From positions 1 to 27,050 of the IMG/VR virus record IMGVR_UViG_3300025872_000253: DNA of 27,050 nt; one strand, given 5' to 3'. The position numbers were made by a program, and so were the translations under genes. The DNA comes from a virus. Shown here piece by piece: positions 9,948 to 25,297 of the stretch (position 1 is its first letter; every line of letters starts with the position of its first letter). The notes beneath the pieces were generated by a model. It worked only from the letters and a program-made list of their open reading frames with translations, searched no databases and had not been told where the DNA came from.

Positions 9948-10949
9948 ATGGCATCGTTTAGAAAAAAAGGTAGTGGCTGGGAGGTATCAGTTTGTCGCAA
10001 GGGCGTCCGGCGGTCAAGGACATTTGACACAAAATCTGAGGCAAGCTTTTGGGCTGCTGAGATAGAACAAGAAATTCTATCCGGTCACGCCGGAAAAATT
10101 CCGGACAAAACATTTGCGGAATTATTACGTCGTTACGGAAATGACGTAAGCGTACATAAGCGTGGCTGTGAGTGGGAGCTGAAGCGAATAAACATGATTT
10201 GCCGCGATGAAGTGGCTGCGGTTATGCTGTCGCAGCTTAGGTCAGAAATATTCGCGTCATGGCGCGATAGACGGCTGCGTGTCGTGTCGGTTGGCACAGT
10301 GCTTCGAGAATGGAATTTATTGAGCCATGCGATCAATGTGGCCGTGAAAGAGTGGGGATGGCTGAAAGAAAATCCACTTAAGAGTGTGCGGCGTCCGGCG
10401 CAACCAAAAGCACGGGATCGGGTGATTAGTGATGATGAGATCGAGCGATTGTTGTTCGCGCTCGGATACGATTATGAACGTTACCCGGCAACATTCTCTG
10501 CCAGGGTAGGGGCGGCGCTATTGTTTGCAATTGAAACGGCTATGCGTGCGGGTGAGATTTGCGGATTGACCTGGGGTAATGTTGATATTGATCGACGCAC
10601 AGCAAGGTTAATTGAAACAAAAAACGGACATAAGCGCGAAGTTCCGTTGTCCGGAGAAGCGATCCGGATTATCAATCAATGTAAAGTCAATCAAGAATCC
10701 GTACCACAGAGTAAAGAAAATTTGGTATTCGGTCTACAATCTAGCCAGATCGATTCGCTTTTTCGGAAAGCAAAAAAGATGTCCATGATTGAGGATTTAC
10801 ACTTCCATGACAGCCGAGCGACCGCCATAACCAGGCTTGCTAAAAAAGTTGATATTCTTACTCTTGCGCGAATATCAGGGCATCGTGACCTGAGGATGCT
10901 TCAGATTTATTACCGAGAAAGCGCTGAGGATATTGCTAAGCGGATTTAA
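9948..10949 (+). CDS. int: Tyrosine-type phage integrase
   Basis: A 333-residue site-specific recombinase that integrates and excises the phage at the tRNA-like core. An N-terminal arm-binding domain (~1-45, FRKKGSGWEVSVCRKGVRR) is followed by a SAM-like core-binding domain (~52-150) and the catalytic domain. The R-K-H-R-H-Y set is complete: R200 (TAMRAGE), K225 (ETKNGHKRE), H287 and R290 (HDSR), H312 (SGHRD), and the nucleophile Y321 or Y322. The start abuts the third arm site, suggesting autoregulation. It is transcribed rightward and converges with the left early operon that ends in the Xis-like gene, unlike lambda where int and xis share an operon. Confidence 0.97.
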   Translation: MASFRKKGSGWEVSVCRKGVRRSRTFDTKSEASFWAAEIEQEILSGHAGKIPDKTFAELLRRYGNDVSVHKRGCEWELKRINMICRDEVAAVMLSQLRSEIFASWRDRRLRVVSVGTVLREWNLLSHAINVAVKEWGWLKENPLKSVRRPAQPKARDRVISDDEIERLLFALGYDYERYPATFSARVGAALLFAIETAMRAGEICGLTWGNVDIDRRTARLIETKNGHKREVPLSGEAIRIINQCKVNQESVPQSKENLVFGLQSSQIDSLFRKAKKMSMIEDLHFHDSRATAITRLAKKVDILTLARISGHRDLRMLQIYYRESAEDIAKRI

Positions 10950-18948: not shown

Positions 18949-19356
18949 TTATTCTGCTCCATTGCTGTGCTTTGTGCCGTTGTTTTTTGGTTCTGGTTTT
19001 GCATCATCTCTATTAGATCCGTCACTTTTTAAATTAGATATTGATTCTGTGTTCATTCTGGCAATCGTGCCAACAATAGCCTTAAACTTTTGATCTGATA
19101 AGAGCTTGTCTAAGATAAATTTTGTTTCATCATCATAAACGACATCTTCAAGTGGTGTTTCTCCTCGAAGCTGGCTCACTGTAATTTTGTACGCTGCCGC
19201 TATTTTTCTCGCGGTATTGCTGTTCATGTCTGTTTGACCAGTCAAGAATCTGTGTATTGTTGGCTGTGTTATACCCGATATATCGGCGAGGTCATAAGGG
19301 CTATGCTTATGATCTTCCATGAGTTTTTTTAATATCGATATACCTTTATCGTTCAT
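18949..19356 (-). CDS. XRE-family phage repressor without peptidase domain
   Basis: A 135-residue DNA-binding protein with a lambda-type HTH at ~20-40 (YDLADISGITQPTIHRFLTG) and a helical continuation to ~65. It then has an acidic/polar tail (SDGSNRDDAKPEPKNNG) instead of the S24 autoprotease of CI/LexA. The start is placed at ATG 19356: the predicted PRM start falls on it and no ribosome binding site precedes it, as for leaderless lambda cI. A TTG at 19371 is the alternative. It should bind the AATACA-N4-TGTATT operators. Lack of a protease domain argues against classical RecA-triggered self-cleavage. Confidence 0.85.
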   Translation of the reverse strand: MNDKGISILKKLMEDHKHSPYDLADISGITQPTIHRFLTGQTDMNSNTARKIAAAYKITVSQLRGETPLEDVVYDDETKFILDKLLSDQKFKAIVGTIARMNTESISNLKSDGSNRDDAKPEPKNNGTKHSNGAE

Positions 19357-19364
19357 GTGCGCAT

Positions 19365-19429
19365 GATGCAATCTTGTATTGGCAACGTCAAATACATTAT
19401 CGTATTGACAGTAATACAGCAGTGTATTA
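19365..19429. promoter_or_regulatory. Right operator region with divergent PR and PRM promoters
   Basis: Three operator-like sites: 19412-19429 (TAATACA-GCAG-TGTATTA, perfect), 19391-19406 (AATACA-TTAT-CGTATT, one mismatch) and 19365-19380 (GATGCA-ATCT-TGTATT, weak), with centres 22 and 26 bp apart. PR (+): TTGACA 19405-19410, 17 bp, TATTGT 19428-19433, start near 19440. PRM (-): TTGACG 19391-19386, 17 bp, CATCAT 19368-19363, start near 19356. Both predicted starts fall on ATG codons, implying two leaderless mRNAs. Confidence 0.8.
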
Positions 19430-20411: not shown

Positions 20412-21446
20412 ATGAGTAGTTATGCCTATTACAACGAATACGACAAAAATGCGGCAGCATGGTTGCGCGAGCTAATTAAGGAAGGATTAATAGCAAATGG
20501 TGAAGTCGATGAACGATCAATTGTTGATGTCACGGCAAATGATCTGCGAGGATTTAGCCAGCACCACTTTTTTGCAGGAATCGGTGGGTGGAGTTATGCG
20601 CTTAGACTCGCAGGATGGAATGACAATAAACCGGTATGGACAGCAAGCTTGCCTTGTCAACCGTTCAGTGCAGCAGGGAAAAAACTCGGGAAATCAGACG
20701 AACGACACTTATTGCCGCACTTTATCGAACTTGTTAAGCAGTGCAGACCTCCAGTCATGTTTGGAGAGCAGGTTCCTGGCGCAATTAAGCACGGATGGCT
20801 CGATGTTTTATACGCAGAAATGGAAGCGTGTGGTTACGCCTGCGGGTCGATCATTGCTGGCGCACACAGCGTCGGTGCGGCGCATATCAGGCAGCGATTG
20901 TACTGGGTGGGTGTCTCCAATGGCGCAAGATTGCAACAGAGGATCAAAACCTCCAAGGAATCACGATACTGGAGTGCCACTGAGTCAACAAGTGACGATG
21001 ATTTCAGGGTATCCAACTCCAGCAGCCAGAGATTACAAGAGCAACCTAGCAACGGAAGAATTTCACAAGAAACGAATGGAAATGTCGCGCGGGAAAACCC
21101 TTCCGGAAGTAGAGGGATGGGCAACTCCGCGCGTAACAACGAACCAAGGTTGCGGGAATCCGAAGAGAGCAATGGACAACAAAAGCCGCTTGGAAGATCA
21201 AATTTTCCTGGTATGCAATGGATTCACTGCCAAGACAACAAATACAGGCCAGTTAAACCCGGCATTTTCCCGCTGGCTAATGGCATACCCAAAGGAATGG
21301 TGTATAGCTGCGATCCGAGCGCACCGCACAATGAGAATGCAACGCAGGAAGCGCGCGCAATGAGGTTAAAAGGATATGGCAATGCAATTGTTCCGCTGGT
21401 TGCTGCTGAGTTTATTGGCGCATATATGTCAATTATGGGTGATTGA
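20412..21446 (+). CDS. C5-cytosine DNA methyltransferase
   Basis: A 344-residue enzyme that methylates cytosine C5 using S-adenosylmethionine. Motif I is FFAGIGGW (53-60), motif IV PCQPFSAAGK with catalytic C82, motif VI GEQV (E119, Q in place of the usual N), motif VIII IRQRLYWVG (159-167), and motif X GYGNAIVP (321-328). The target-recognition region (~168-270) is Ser/Asn/Arg-rich and low in predicted structure. An 80-residue-scale extension precedes motif I (YNEYDKNAAAWLRELI). Most of the gene is overlapped by a second open frame (20497-21363). Likely role: protection from host restriction or modification of phage DNA. Confidence 0.95.
   Translation: MSSYAYYNEYDKNAAAWLRELIKEGLIANGEVDERSIVDVTANDLRGFSQHHFFAGIGGWSYALRLAGWNDNKPVWTASLPCQPFSAAGKKLGKSDERHLLPHFIELVKQCRPPVMFGEQVPGAIKHGWLDVLYAEMEACGYACGSIIAGAHSVGAAHIRQRLYWVGVSNGARLQQRIKTSKESRYWSATESTSDDDFRVSNSSSQRLQEQPSNGRISQETNGNVARENPSGSRGMGNSARNNEPRLRESEESNGQQKPLGRSNFPGMQWIHCQDNKYRPVKPGIFPLANGIPKGMVYSCDPSAPHNENATQEARAMRLKGYGNAIVPLVAAEFIGAYMSIMGD
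20497..21363 (+). CDS. Overprinted second-frame protein inside the methyltransferase gene (288 aa)
   Basis: The +1 frame is open for 289 codons within the methyltransferase gene. Its translation is not random: it has W/Y-x-[TS]-P modules (GWVSPMAQDCNRG, GYPTPAARDYKSN, GWATPRVTTN), an upstream block ending VRRISGSDCTGW, and an ending GQLNPAFSRWLMAYPKEW. I recall these features from proteins annotated in many proteobacterial phages beside or fused to Dcm. A purine-rich site (AAGGAAGGA) lies ~10 bases before ATG 20497. It may be produced independently or by frameshifting as an alternative recognition region. Expression is not provable here. Confidence 0.55.
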   Translation: MVKSMNDQLLMSRQMICEDLASTTFLQESVGGVMRLDSQDGMTINRYGQQACLVNRSVQQGKNSGNQTNDTYCRTLSNLLSSADLQSCLESRFLAQLSTDGSMFYTQKWKRVVTPAGRSLLAHTASVRRISGSDCTGWVSPMAQDCNRGSKPPRNHDTGVPLSQQVTMISGYPTPAARDYKSNLATEEFHKKRMEMSRGKTLPEVEGWATPRVTTNQGCGNPKRAMDNKSRLEDQIFLVCNGFTAKTTNTGQLNPAFSRWLMAYPKEWCIAAIRAHRTMRMQRRKRAQ

Positions 21447-21448
21447 TA

Positions 21449-22258
21449 ATGCACTATTACCAGCTTAACATTGCTGACTATCGAAAAGATACTACTCATC
21501 TGACGCCGATTGAGCATTACATATACCGAACGCTTATTGATTGGTATTACCTAGATGAGTCGCCAATACCAAAAGAAACCCAGTCGGTTATGCGTCGGTT
21601 ACGGTTGGGAACCGAAGAAGAAGCGGGATTGTTGCGAAACGTTCTTTCTGACTTTTTTGTTGAAACCGAAAGGGGGTGGGAACACCAGAGGATCGAATTG
21701 GAGATAGCAGAATACTATAAAAAATGCCAAAAGAATAAGGAAAACGGCAAGAAAGGCGGTCGTCCAAAGTCAACTCCAGAGCCGGAGAAAACCCAGTCGG
21801 TTATTTTGGTTAACCCAAATGAAAGCGAATCAAACCCTAACCAAGAACCATTAACCAATAACCATAAACCAGTTTTAAAAGAAAAAAATATAAAAAAAGA
21901 AAACCGGGATTCTTTCCGAGAAAACTTATCGGATGTAACCGATCAGACATATTCTGATTTTAAAAAACTGAGATTGGCAAAAAAAGCTCCGCTCACAGAA
22001 AGAGCAATAGCAGCAATTCGCGACGAAGCTGCAAAAGCAGGCATTAACCTGGAAACAGCTTTGATCGAATGTTGCGCTAGGGGATGGACTGGGTTTAAAG
22101 CTGAGTGGTATCAAAAAACATCAGTGCCAATGCAACGCGGATCACCGGTAGTTCCTATTGATCGAAGCGAGTACAACCGGCAGCAAACGCGGATCGCAAA
22201 AGAGAAATTATTTGGCAGTTCAGAGGCTCCACGGGAAAAGGATGTGACAAATGGATAA
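21449..22258 (+). CDS. DUF1376/YdaU-type replication initiation protein (O-like)
   Basis: A 269-residue protein; I use ATG 21449 rather than TTG 21443. The N-terminal winged-helix domain (HYYQLNIADYRKDTTHLTPI, IEHYIYRTLIDWYYLDE, PIPKETQSVMRRLRL) is the DUF1376 signature of phage replisome organisers. A polar Asn/Pro/Lys linker (~110-150) follows, whose DNA carries 7-bp iterons. A C-terminal helical domain (KAPLTERAIAAIRDEAAKAG, GWTGFKAEWY) may contact the helicase loader. It corresponds in position and role to lambda O. Confidence 0.88.
   Translation: MHYYQLNIADYRKDTTHLTPIEHYIYRTLIDWYYLDESPIPKETQSVMRRLRLGTEEEAGLLRNVLSDFFVETERGWEHQRIELEIAEYYKKCQKNKENGKKGGRPKSTPEPEKTQSVILVNPNESESNPNQEPLTNNHKPVLKEKNIKKENRDSFRENLSDVTDQTYSDFKKLRLAKKAPLTERAIAAIRDEAAKAGINLETALIECCARGWTGFKAEWYQKTSVPMQRGSPVVPIDRSEYNRQQTRIAKEKLFGSSEAPREKDVTNG
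21839..21905 (+). other. Putative replication origin: 7-bp iterons plus AT-rich segment
   Basis: AACCA recurs at 21839, 21846, 21853, 21860 and 21867, an exact 7-bp period, immediately followed by an A/T-rich stretch (21872-21905). Seven is not a multiple of three, so the repeat is not a peptide repeat. Position inside the O-like gene matches the lambda ori layout of iterons followed by an AT-rich unwinding region. Confidence 0.6.
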
Positions 22259-23873: not shown

Positions 23874-24536
23874 ATGATCCAGCAAACTATAAAAACGGCA
23901 ACAATCATGAATGTTGATTGCATGGAATACATGCGCACGGTACCCGATGATTATTTTGATTTGGCTGTGTGCGATCCGCCGTATTTTGATGGTCCACAAA
24001 AACCTGGATATTACAAAGGGACAAGACAGAAAAGTGACGTTGGTACTTACAAAAATATAAGCACTTGGGAAGTTCCAGGGGAAGCATATTTTAATGAGTT
24101 GCTTCGAATTTCAAAAAATCAAATTATTTTCGGGATCAATTATCTTGATGTAAAAGCGCCAGGCGGGAGAATTGTTTGGGTAAAAGGATGTGAAAATAGC
24201 CCATTCAGCATGGCTGAAATAGCATATCAATCATTTTATAACCGCATAGATATGTTTCGCTATCTATGGGCTGGGTTCTGGAGGGAGCCTGGTGCATTGA
24301 AAGAGGTGAGAATACATCCGACACAAAAACCGGTACCTCTGTATGAATGGATTTTGGAAACATACGCCAAGTCGGGACAAAAAATATTCGATTCGCATCT
24401 TGGTTCTGGTTCAAGCGCTATCGCTGCTAATAACATGGGATTTGAATTTGTTGGGTGCGAGCTTGATCCGGATTATTTTGAGTCTGCATGTAAGCGTATA
24501 GCCAATCACTCTGCTCAATTAAGGATGTTCTCATGA
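23874..24536 (+). CDS. DNA N6-adenine or N4-cytosine methyltransferase
   Basis: A 220-residue amino-methyltransferase. Catalytic motif IV DPPY is at 34-37 and comes before the SAM-binding motif I region FDSHLGSGSSAIAA (172-185), a beta-class order. HPTQKPVPLYEWIL is the usual motif X-like lead-in. There is no long recognition domain, so specificity cannot be read. It is the second methyltransferase in the early operon and overlaps the next gene by 4 bases. Confidence 0.93.
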   Translation: MIQQTIKTATIMNVDCMEYMRTVPDDYFDLAVCDPPYFDGPQKPGYYKGTRQKSDVGTYKNISTWEVPGEAYFNELLRISKNQIIFGINYLDVKAPGGRIVWVKGCENSPFSMAEIAYQSFYNRIDMFRYLWAGFWREPGALKEVRIHPTQKPVPLYEWILETYAKSGQKIFDSHLGSGSSAIAANNMGFEFVGCELDPDYFESACKRIANHSAQLRMFS

Positions 24537-25297
24537 ATCAAGAAACTTACGAAACCATAGCAAAATTAGAGCAAACAATGCGTTCTATCGGTGTTTTGGA
24601 GTTTTCCGGTGAAATGCAATTGCTCGAATGGCAGAAAAGCACGTCTCGTGATGTTCCGAAGATTAAATTTGGATTGCTTGATGATGAAAGTCTCGAACCA
24701 TTTGAAATTGCAACGGTGAAAAAGGGCAAGATGGCAGGACAGATTTACCACGTTTTTGCGATCAGAATTGACGAAACATCAAATAAATCAACAGGAATTC
24801 ACGGGATCGAAAAGAGGGAAAATAAAGCAGAAAAAATACCGAACCAACTTGCACAAAAAATGCACCGAGACGGGTATTTCCGCAATTTAAAGCTATGGGA
24901 TGCGATGGAGGCGAAGGGAATTTATACCCAGGAAATGCATAAGTCGTGGGTTGAAAGTTTACCGTGCTGCGCGAGAATCGAATTTGCGCCGCACATTAGT
25001 TGCGGTGGTGATGTTGTAATGCACCACGTCAAAACATCAGCAAATTCAGGAGTCGGGATCAAGCCGAAGCATTGGTACGGTGTTCCGCTATGCCATAACC
25101 ACCACATGACATGGGCGCATGGATCGCATGCTGGATCAGCTACGCACGAGGATCGGCATGATGTGTTGTTGCCGCACGCTGTTCAATTGACTGCGGAGCG
25201 GATGAAATTGAAATTCAAAGAGGCGATGGGGTTATCAAGTTTGTCCGAGATGACTCAGGAAATGCTTGATGATTTTGAGAGGTATTTGTTTGGCTAA
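24533..25297 (+). CDS. DUF968-like HNH nuclease-type protein
   Basis: A 254-residue protein. The N-terminal ~95 residues form a beta-rich domain (LLEWQKSTSRDVPKIKFGLL, KKGKMAGQIYHVFAIRI). The C-terminal half carries an HNH-like zinc/metal site: CCARIEFAPH, MHHVKTSANSGVGIKP, VPLCHNHHMTWAHG, matching DUF968 phage proteins, whose place near recombination and Nin genes suggests structure-specific nuclease activity. The start overlaps the methyltransferase stop. Confidence 0.8.
   Translation: MNQETYETIAKLEQTMRSIGVLEFSGEMQLLEWQKSTSRDVPKIKFGLLDDESLEPFEIATVKKGKMAGQIYHVFAIRIDETSNKSTGIHGIEKRENKAEKIPNQLAQKMHRDGYFRNLKLWDAMEAKGIYTQEMHKSWVESLPCCARIEFAPHISCGGDVVMHHVKTSANSGVGIKPKHWYGVPLCHNHHMTWAHGSHAGSATHEDRHDVLLPHAVQLTAERMKLKFKEAMGLSSLSEMTQEMLDDFERYLFG

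Follow-up and report, generated by a model that had tools for sequence, protein, structure and literature searches.

The small subunit of M.EcoHK31I, a C5-cytosine DNA methyltransferase of E. coli, is reportedly read from the +1 frame within the gene of the large subunit, as Lee, Kam and Shaw are said to have described in 1995. This enzyme (specificity YGGCCR) is naturally split, with motifs I–VIII and X located in the large subunit and motif IX in the small one (PMC3404938). M.AquI (CYCGRG), another two-subunit C5-methyltransferase, is divided between motif VIII and motif IX (PMC3404938), i.e. within the variable region, and its small subunit holds both motifs IX and X. The multispecific C5-methyltransferases of the Bacillus phages SPR, phi3T and H2 combine several tandem target-recognition domains (TRDs) in one enzyme (PMC8936443), each of them being a single chain encoded in one frame.

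The window, i.e. the whole stretch of 27,050 bases of an IMG/VR virus record analysed here, is marked as a temperate phage or prophage by its genes for an integrase (9948–10949), a repressor (18949–19371) and a primosomal/replication protein (21443–22258). It contains a C5-methyltransferase ORF of 344 residues, alpha, at 20412..21446 on the + strand (as are all features of the locus given below), and entirely within it, in the +1 frame, a second ORF of up to 288 residues, beta, at 20497..21363, with its stop ending at 21363 and its start at ATG 20497 or ATG 20509. An earlier sequence-only reading had placed a nested +1 frame of 288 residues at the same coordinates. The locus probably specifies a C5-cytosine DNA methyltransferase that is naturally split into two polypeptides, read from nested frames of the same strand. 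Compared by subunit layout, M.EcoHK31I is its nearest precedent, since the two share the same division of motifs, a large polypeptide with motifs I–VIII and X and a small one with motif IX; the small ORF of the window is moreover read in a different frame within the large one, a trait that M.EcoHK31I is said to possess as well. The TRD of M.EcoHK31I is, however, predicted in the large subunit, whereas the recognition modules of the window lie in the small one, and the window belongs to a family of orphan phage enzymes with one to six exchangeable modules, unlike M.EcoHK31I. The family differs from M.EcoHK31I in that its nested subunit bears the recognition modules, in the exchangeable tandem arrangement of these modules and in scale. 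M.AquI, differing from the window in keeping motifs IX and X together, is closer to the half-nested pairs of loci L376 and L002, and the SPR, phi3T and H2 enzymes are likened to the window's modules by description. A search of one literature collection yielded no description of the nested alpha/beta family. Further downstream, the window holds a second, unrelated DNA methyltransferase gene (23874–24536; phrog_67, E 3.6e-45), after which comes an ORF resembling HNH endonucleases (24533–25297).

Alpha matched PF00145 (E 5.1e-22) and phrog_363 (E 4.1e-72), and its best Foldseek match in the PDB is M.HhaI (E 1.9e-8). Alignment with M.HhaI located the motifs characterizing a C5-methyltransferase catalytic domain: motif I, HFFAGIGG (20565..20588), aligned with FAGLGG of M.HhaI; motif IV, LPCQPFSAAGK (20649..20681), with the PCQ that contains the catalytic cysteine; motif VI, FGEQV (20760..20774), with GEQ replacing the usual ENV; and motif VIII, AAHIRQRLYWV (20877..20909). 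Motif X, KGYGNAIVPLVAAEFI, read directly at 21369..21416, is positioned just past the beta stop and therefore outside the overlap. In the AlphaFold2 model, the catalytic part (residues 1–170) is confident, with pLDDT mostly 87–97, as is the helix of motif X; pLDDT falls below 50 over residues 187–257, where the TRD would be expected. Neither a folded TRD in the AlphaFold2 model nor a conserved TRD in frame 0 was seen for alpha, and no motif IX was recognisable in frame 0, its pattern being found only in the +1 frame (148 cases), so that alpha does not combine a TRD and motif IX in its own chain. The claim of the sequence-only reading that frame one has all C5-methyltransferase motifs has thus to be corrected: it has only I, IV, VI, VIII and X, motif IX being found in the +1 frame.

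Beta matched phrog_1008 (E 7e-29), labelled DNA methyltransferase; no family was matched in Pfam and NCBIfam, and a PDB search gave nothing useful. As judged from AlphaFold2 and the sequence, it consists of a disordered start, a helix-hairpin element, tandem WxTP modules and a confident C-terminal LNPxxSRWLMGxPxEW segment. The N-terminal folded element (20740..20874; SADLQ...GSMFYTQKWKRVVTPAGRSLLAHTAS), conserved across A3, has a confidently predicted helix at residues 73–96 and strands at 101–109 and 115–123, as numbered from ATG 20509. Three tandem modules follow at 20905..21249 (singly 20905–21006, 21007–21114 and 21115–21249), proposed as the target-recognition region, and then the motif IX equivalent, QLNPAFSRWLMAYPKEWC, at 21250..21303, the helices of which are again confident. 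The modules are shared with other phages, and selection over them acts in the +1 frame. Both the W/Y-x-T/S-P modules and the ending LNPAFSRWLMAYPKEWC, to which the sequence-only reading had drawn attention, are present in the +1 frame. Taken overall, the model of beta is weak (pLDDT 60, pTM 0.28), and its structural details are therefore tentative. A Foldseek search against viral models returned four confident matches with low TM-scores; the two named ones are a methyltransferase of an Edwardsiella phage and an uncharacterised protein of a Xanthomonas phage, and the phage groups of both carry the nested pair.

The beta product was matched by tblastn in 222 phage records, with at least 80% of beta covered in 180 of them. 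With the window's own proteins as queries in viral contigs, one locus was retrieved for alpha and none for beta; alignments used as queries succeeded. GC-rich genes often contain open off-frame ORFs, and a tblastn match in another frame may be no more than shadow similarity. Since the matches to beta might be such shadows of the conserved methyltransferase, coding was tested directly in 182 distinct methyltransferase genes from IMG/VR, GTDB genomes and phage records, 170 of them with all landmarks. Openness was scored over about 265 codons per gene against a null model in which synonymous codons were shuffled within each gene, keeping both the protein and the codon usage. The +1 frame proved to be open in 169 of the 170 homologues, where 5.1 were expected from the shuffles, and the +2 frame in none of them; genes retrieved via alpha alone behaved in the same way (63/63 with 2.4 expected, and 55/55 with 1.4 expected). 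The single gene scored as closed, L100, retains a shorter nested beta ORF of 250 codons. These counts are not independent trials, because homologous genes are related; the betas form 64 groups at 50% identity. For the window alone, shuffling of the frame-0 synonymous codons predicted about five +1 stops (3.3 + 1.2 + 0.5 over three regions) and none was observed. The +1 frame is coding, not open by chance, and the dual-frame arrangement is present in hundreds of phage and prophage copies. That the +1 ORF would be a non-coding shadow of the conserved methyltransferase, or a product of base composition or codon bias, is hardly credible: GC-rich off-frame openness and shadow similarity in tblastn speak for it as general possibilities, but the observed openness exceeds the shuffled expectation too far, the +2 frame is always closed, and the wobble suppression and frame-switched substitutions described below add to the contradiction. 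Shadow similarity and a base-composition artefact were accordingly ruled out by the shuffles, the +2-frame control and the wobble suppression.

Many relatives carry GACGAAAGGAGnATnnnnGATG, in which an AGGAG element stands 8 nt ahead of the +1 ATG, and the arginine at this Shine-Dalgarno site is written AGG in 33% of cases, against 9% elsewhere. The combination of a Shine-Dalgarno element and a +1 ATG occurs in 129 of the 182 genes, compared with 37.8 ± 5.6 in the shuffles and 20 in the +2 frame. AGGAG, frequent in the relatives, is missing from the window at this place, and two beta starts are possible there. Its candidate ribosome-binding sites (20480..20503), read directly and paralleled by those of the homologues, are GGAAGGA (20480–20486), which would serve ATG 20497, and GGTGA (20499–20503), which would serve ATG 20509; +1 stops at 20488 and 20491 shut the beta frame immediately upstream. 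Beta has its own internal start within the methyltransferase gene, and presumably one of these two ATGs is used in the window. Upstream of the beta start, the +1 frame of the homologues is open in 10 cases, fewer than the 34 expected, and across motifs I–VIII, i.e. upstream of the TRD, it is open in 126 of 126 genes, with 12.8 expected. A programmed +1 frameshift near motif VIII, by which motifs I–VIII of alpha would be continued into the TRD and motif IX of the +1 frame, would explain the correct order of the catalytic, TRD and motif IX parts across the two frames as well as the existence of single-chain homologues. The resulting chimeric chain would be devoid of motif X, though, and would need neither an open +1 frame upstream of the TRD nor the conserved internal Shine-Dalgarno element and ATG of beta, so this explanation is improbable; in its frameshift-only form it was disfavoured by the latter two observations. 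The suggestion of the sequence-only reading that a programmed shift yields two target-recognition regions was likewise not supported, since beta starts independently, the part of the +1 frame preceding the TRD is kept open, and frame 0 has neither a conserved nor a folded TRD.

Comparison of third bases at fourfold-degenerate codons of shared residues, in gene pairs 30–60% identical in protein, demonstrated that wobble identity is 0.31 before the +1 start, 0.50 over motifs I–VIII, 0.80 over the +1 LNPAxSRWLMG stretch, where several frame-0 wobble columns are invariant (1.00), and 0.41 after the +1 stop. The distribution of nucleotide differences changes in parallel. Before the overlap, frame-0 codon position 3 accounts for 66% of them; in the TRD region, 61% fall on frame-0 position 1, the wobble position of the +1 codons, and 59% of the changes there are silent in the +1 frame but not in frame 0, versus 11% for the reverse; past the +1 stop, where motif X is encoded, position 3 leads once more with 60%. 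Modules common to gene pairs share 73% identity in the +1 frame and 40% in frame 0, the +1 identity being the higher one in 418 of 419 module pairs. Selection switches frame along the gene. Based on the substitutions and the module identities, the +1 frame is therefore the selected protein over the TRD, and the frame of alpha there (20913..21215), predicted to be disordered from its pLDDT, looks like a passenger. It is very unlikely that both frames supply a TRD, frame 0 keeping its own and the +1 frame adding another. Frame 0 does remain open across the TRD region in the alpha/beta family, and the large subunit of M.EcoHK31I has been stated to contain a predicted TRD (PMC3404938); against this stand the poor conservation of frame 0 over the region, the mostly non-silent character of its changes there, the disorder predicted for alpha and the locus L288, in which the TRD stretch of alpha is interrupted and beta is intact. 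Long-range dual coding, the other possibility raised by the sequence-only reading, is thus borne out by openness against shuffles, wobble suppression, frame-switched substitutions, an internal Shine-Dalgarno element with ATG and hundreds of homologues.

The motifs are partitioned between the two polypeptides, alpha having I–VIII and X and beta having the modules and motif IX, and they are found united in a single-chain homologue. In gp70 of mycobacteriophage ShiLan, the alpha profile matched residues 65–161 (E 7.6e-20) and the beta profile residues 198–353 (E 1.5e-7), the order of catalytic domain, modules and motif IX being collinear with alpha followed by beta. A further single-chain methyltransferase, L300, matched by the beta profile with E 2.1e-6, has LNPxxxxWLMGYP at the place of motif IX in M.HhaI; its LNPDWVEWLMGYPISW, directly before motif X, aligned with RKLHPRECARVMGYPDSY (motif IX) of M.HhaI, a match weak in score by itself and collinear with the strong catalytic one. 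From their position and from these single-chain homologues, the roles of TRD and motif IX may be assigned to beta, which most likely carries the half of the enzyme recognising the DNA sequence. Half-nested forms were found in Gordonia phage Upyo and in the second pair of L002, in which alpha ends after motif VIII and beta has the TRD, motif IX and motif X. Beta might also be a real, separately translated protein that is not a methyltransferase subunit, e.g. an overprinted anti-restriction or regulatory protein, given that its complex with alpha is a prediction and that the Pfam and PDB searches found no relative of known function outside the nested context. This is unlikely in view of the fusion of the same modules and motif IX to the catalytic domain in ShiLan gp70, the lack of a TRD and motif IX in alpha, and the presence of motif X, too, on the beta of half-nested forms.

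In the proposed split enzyme, alpha would supply SAM binding and catalysis (motifs I–VIII) together with motif X, with a disordered linker replacing the TRD of a normal enzyme and joining the catalytic part to motif X. The internal Shine-Dalgarno element and ATG would start beta in the +1 frame, the WxTP modules of about 34 residues acting as target-recognition segments and the subsequent motif IX forming the small domain. Beta, translated at a useful level, would then bind alpha to give one active enzyme, in which alpha flips and methylates the cytosine and beta reads the sequence. The assembled enzyme may methylate the phage genome, most plausibly against host restriction; the location in the early region of a temperate phage, and the fact that no restriction enzyme was recognised among the neighbouring genes scanned in the window, suggest a role in protecting phage DNA.

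Database records variously annotate alpha only, beta only, both or neither, and since usually only one of the two is given, most descriptions of the enzyme cover just one of its halves. Both coding sequences are annotated in Escherichia phage K1G and Paenibacillus phage Pagassa, which, together with phrog_1008, supports the resemblance seen in the sequence-only reading to phage proteins annotated on their own; W5_chr3 has beta only, Pseudomonas phage Riah neither and others alpha only. A complete alpha ORF with nested beta was left unannotated or partly annotated in Riah (L008, 1431–2324) and in Kosakonia phage Kc259 (L374, 1117–2205). The two proteins of the window are members of phrog_363 (alpha) and phrog_1008 (beta), which each bear the label DNA methyltransferase, with no statement in the PHROG library that they represent one locus in two frames. 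If the enzyme is indeed split, alpha cloned or recoded by itself would be inactive or behave aberrantly, and the methylomes predicted for these phages would have been based on the wrong frame for the recognition domain.

Each beta has one to six modules in tandem (median 34 residues; three in the window), located between motifs VIII and IX, and without a solved structure. Module families recur in as many as 35 genes, and such families include two of the three modules of the window. Paenibacillus, Bacteroides, Stenotrophomonas and Kosakonia phages have nested forms as well; a long nested +1 ORF is absent from the ordinary single-chain methyltransferases of phages GAP161 and phi3Ts. A search with LNPxWVEWLMG revealed a second branch, with 64 of 81 ORFs in the +1 frame of an ORF having motifs IV and X; because these loci were picked by the beta motif, their +1 openness is not independent evidence, and only the frame of the partner ORF counts as such. 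It is a serious possibility, falling somewhat short of probable, that beta is a string of exchangeable target-recognition cassettes, by which one phage locus would encode a two-subunit multispecific methyltransferase, its specificity evolving by trade of cassettes of about 100 nt selected in the +1 frame and stop-free in frame 0. Dual coding of this kind would be a widespread means by which phages accumulate specificities that evade restriction; it would extend over Pseudomonadota, Bacillota and Bacteroidota phages, and actinobacteriophages would have it in half-nested and fused form. The nested, half-nested and fused versions together offer extensive comparative material on long dual coding of one strand, through which the start and resolution of overprinting become testable.

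Several related loci deviate from the nested form. The second split methyltransferase of L002 (3999–5676) lies directly downstream of a nested pair, its alpha having motifs I–VIII only and its +1 ORF of 515 codons containing modules, motif IX and motif X. L288 (542–2082, reverse strand) is in three pieces, i.e. an alpha ending after motif VIII, an intact +1 beta and motif X in a separate small ORF, and represents either a decayed or a three-part enzyme. In L100, an HNH endonuclease-like ORF (1978–2502) is found out of frame within the alpha gene, just past the beta stop, with alpha remaining open across it (576 codons); a similar HNH insertion, likewise hidden, has been reported in the ShiLan methylase (PMC11855218). 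Finally, beneath the single-chain methyltransferase of ShiLan (L375, 1502–1960) there is a +1 stretch in which two LPTP modules and an N-terminus like that of beta persist; it looks as though a change of frame had fused a nested ancestor.
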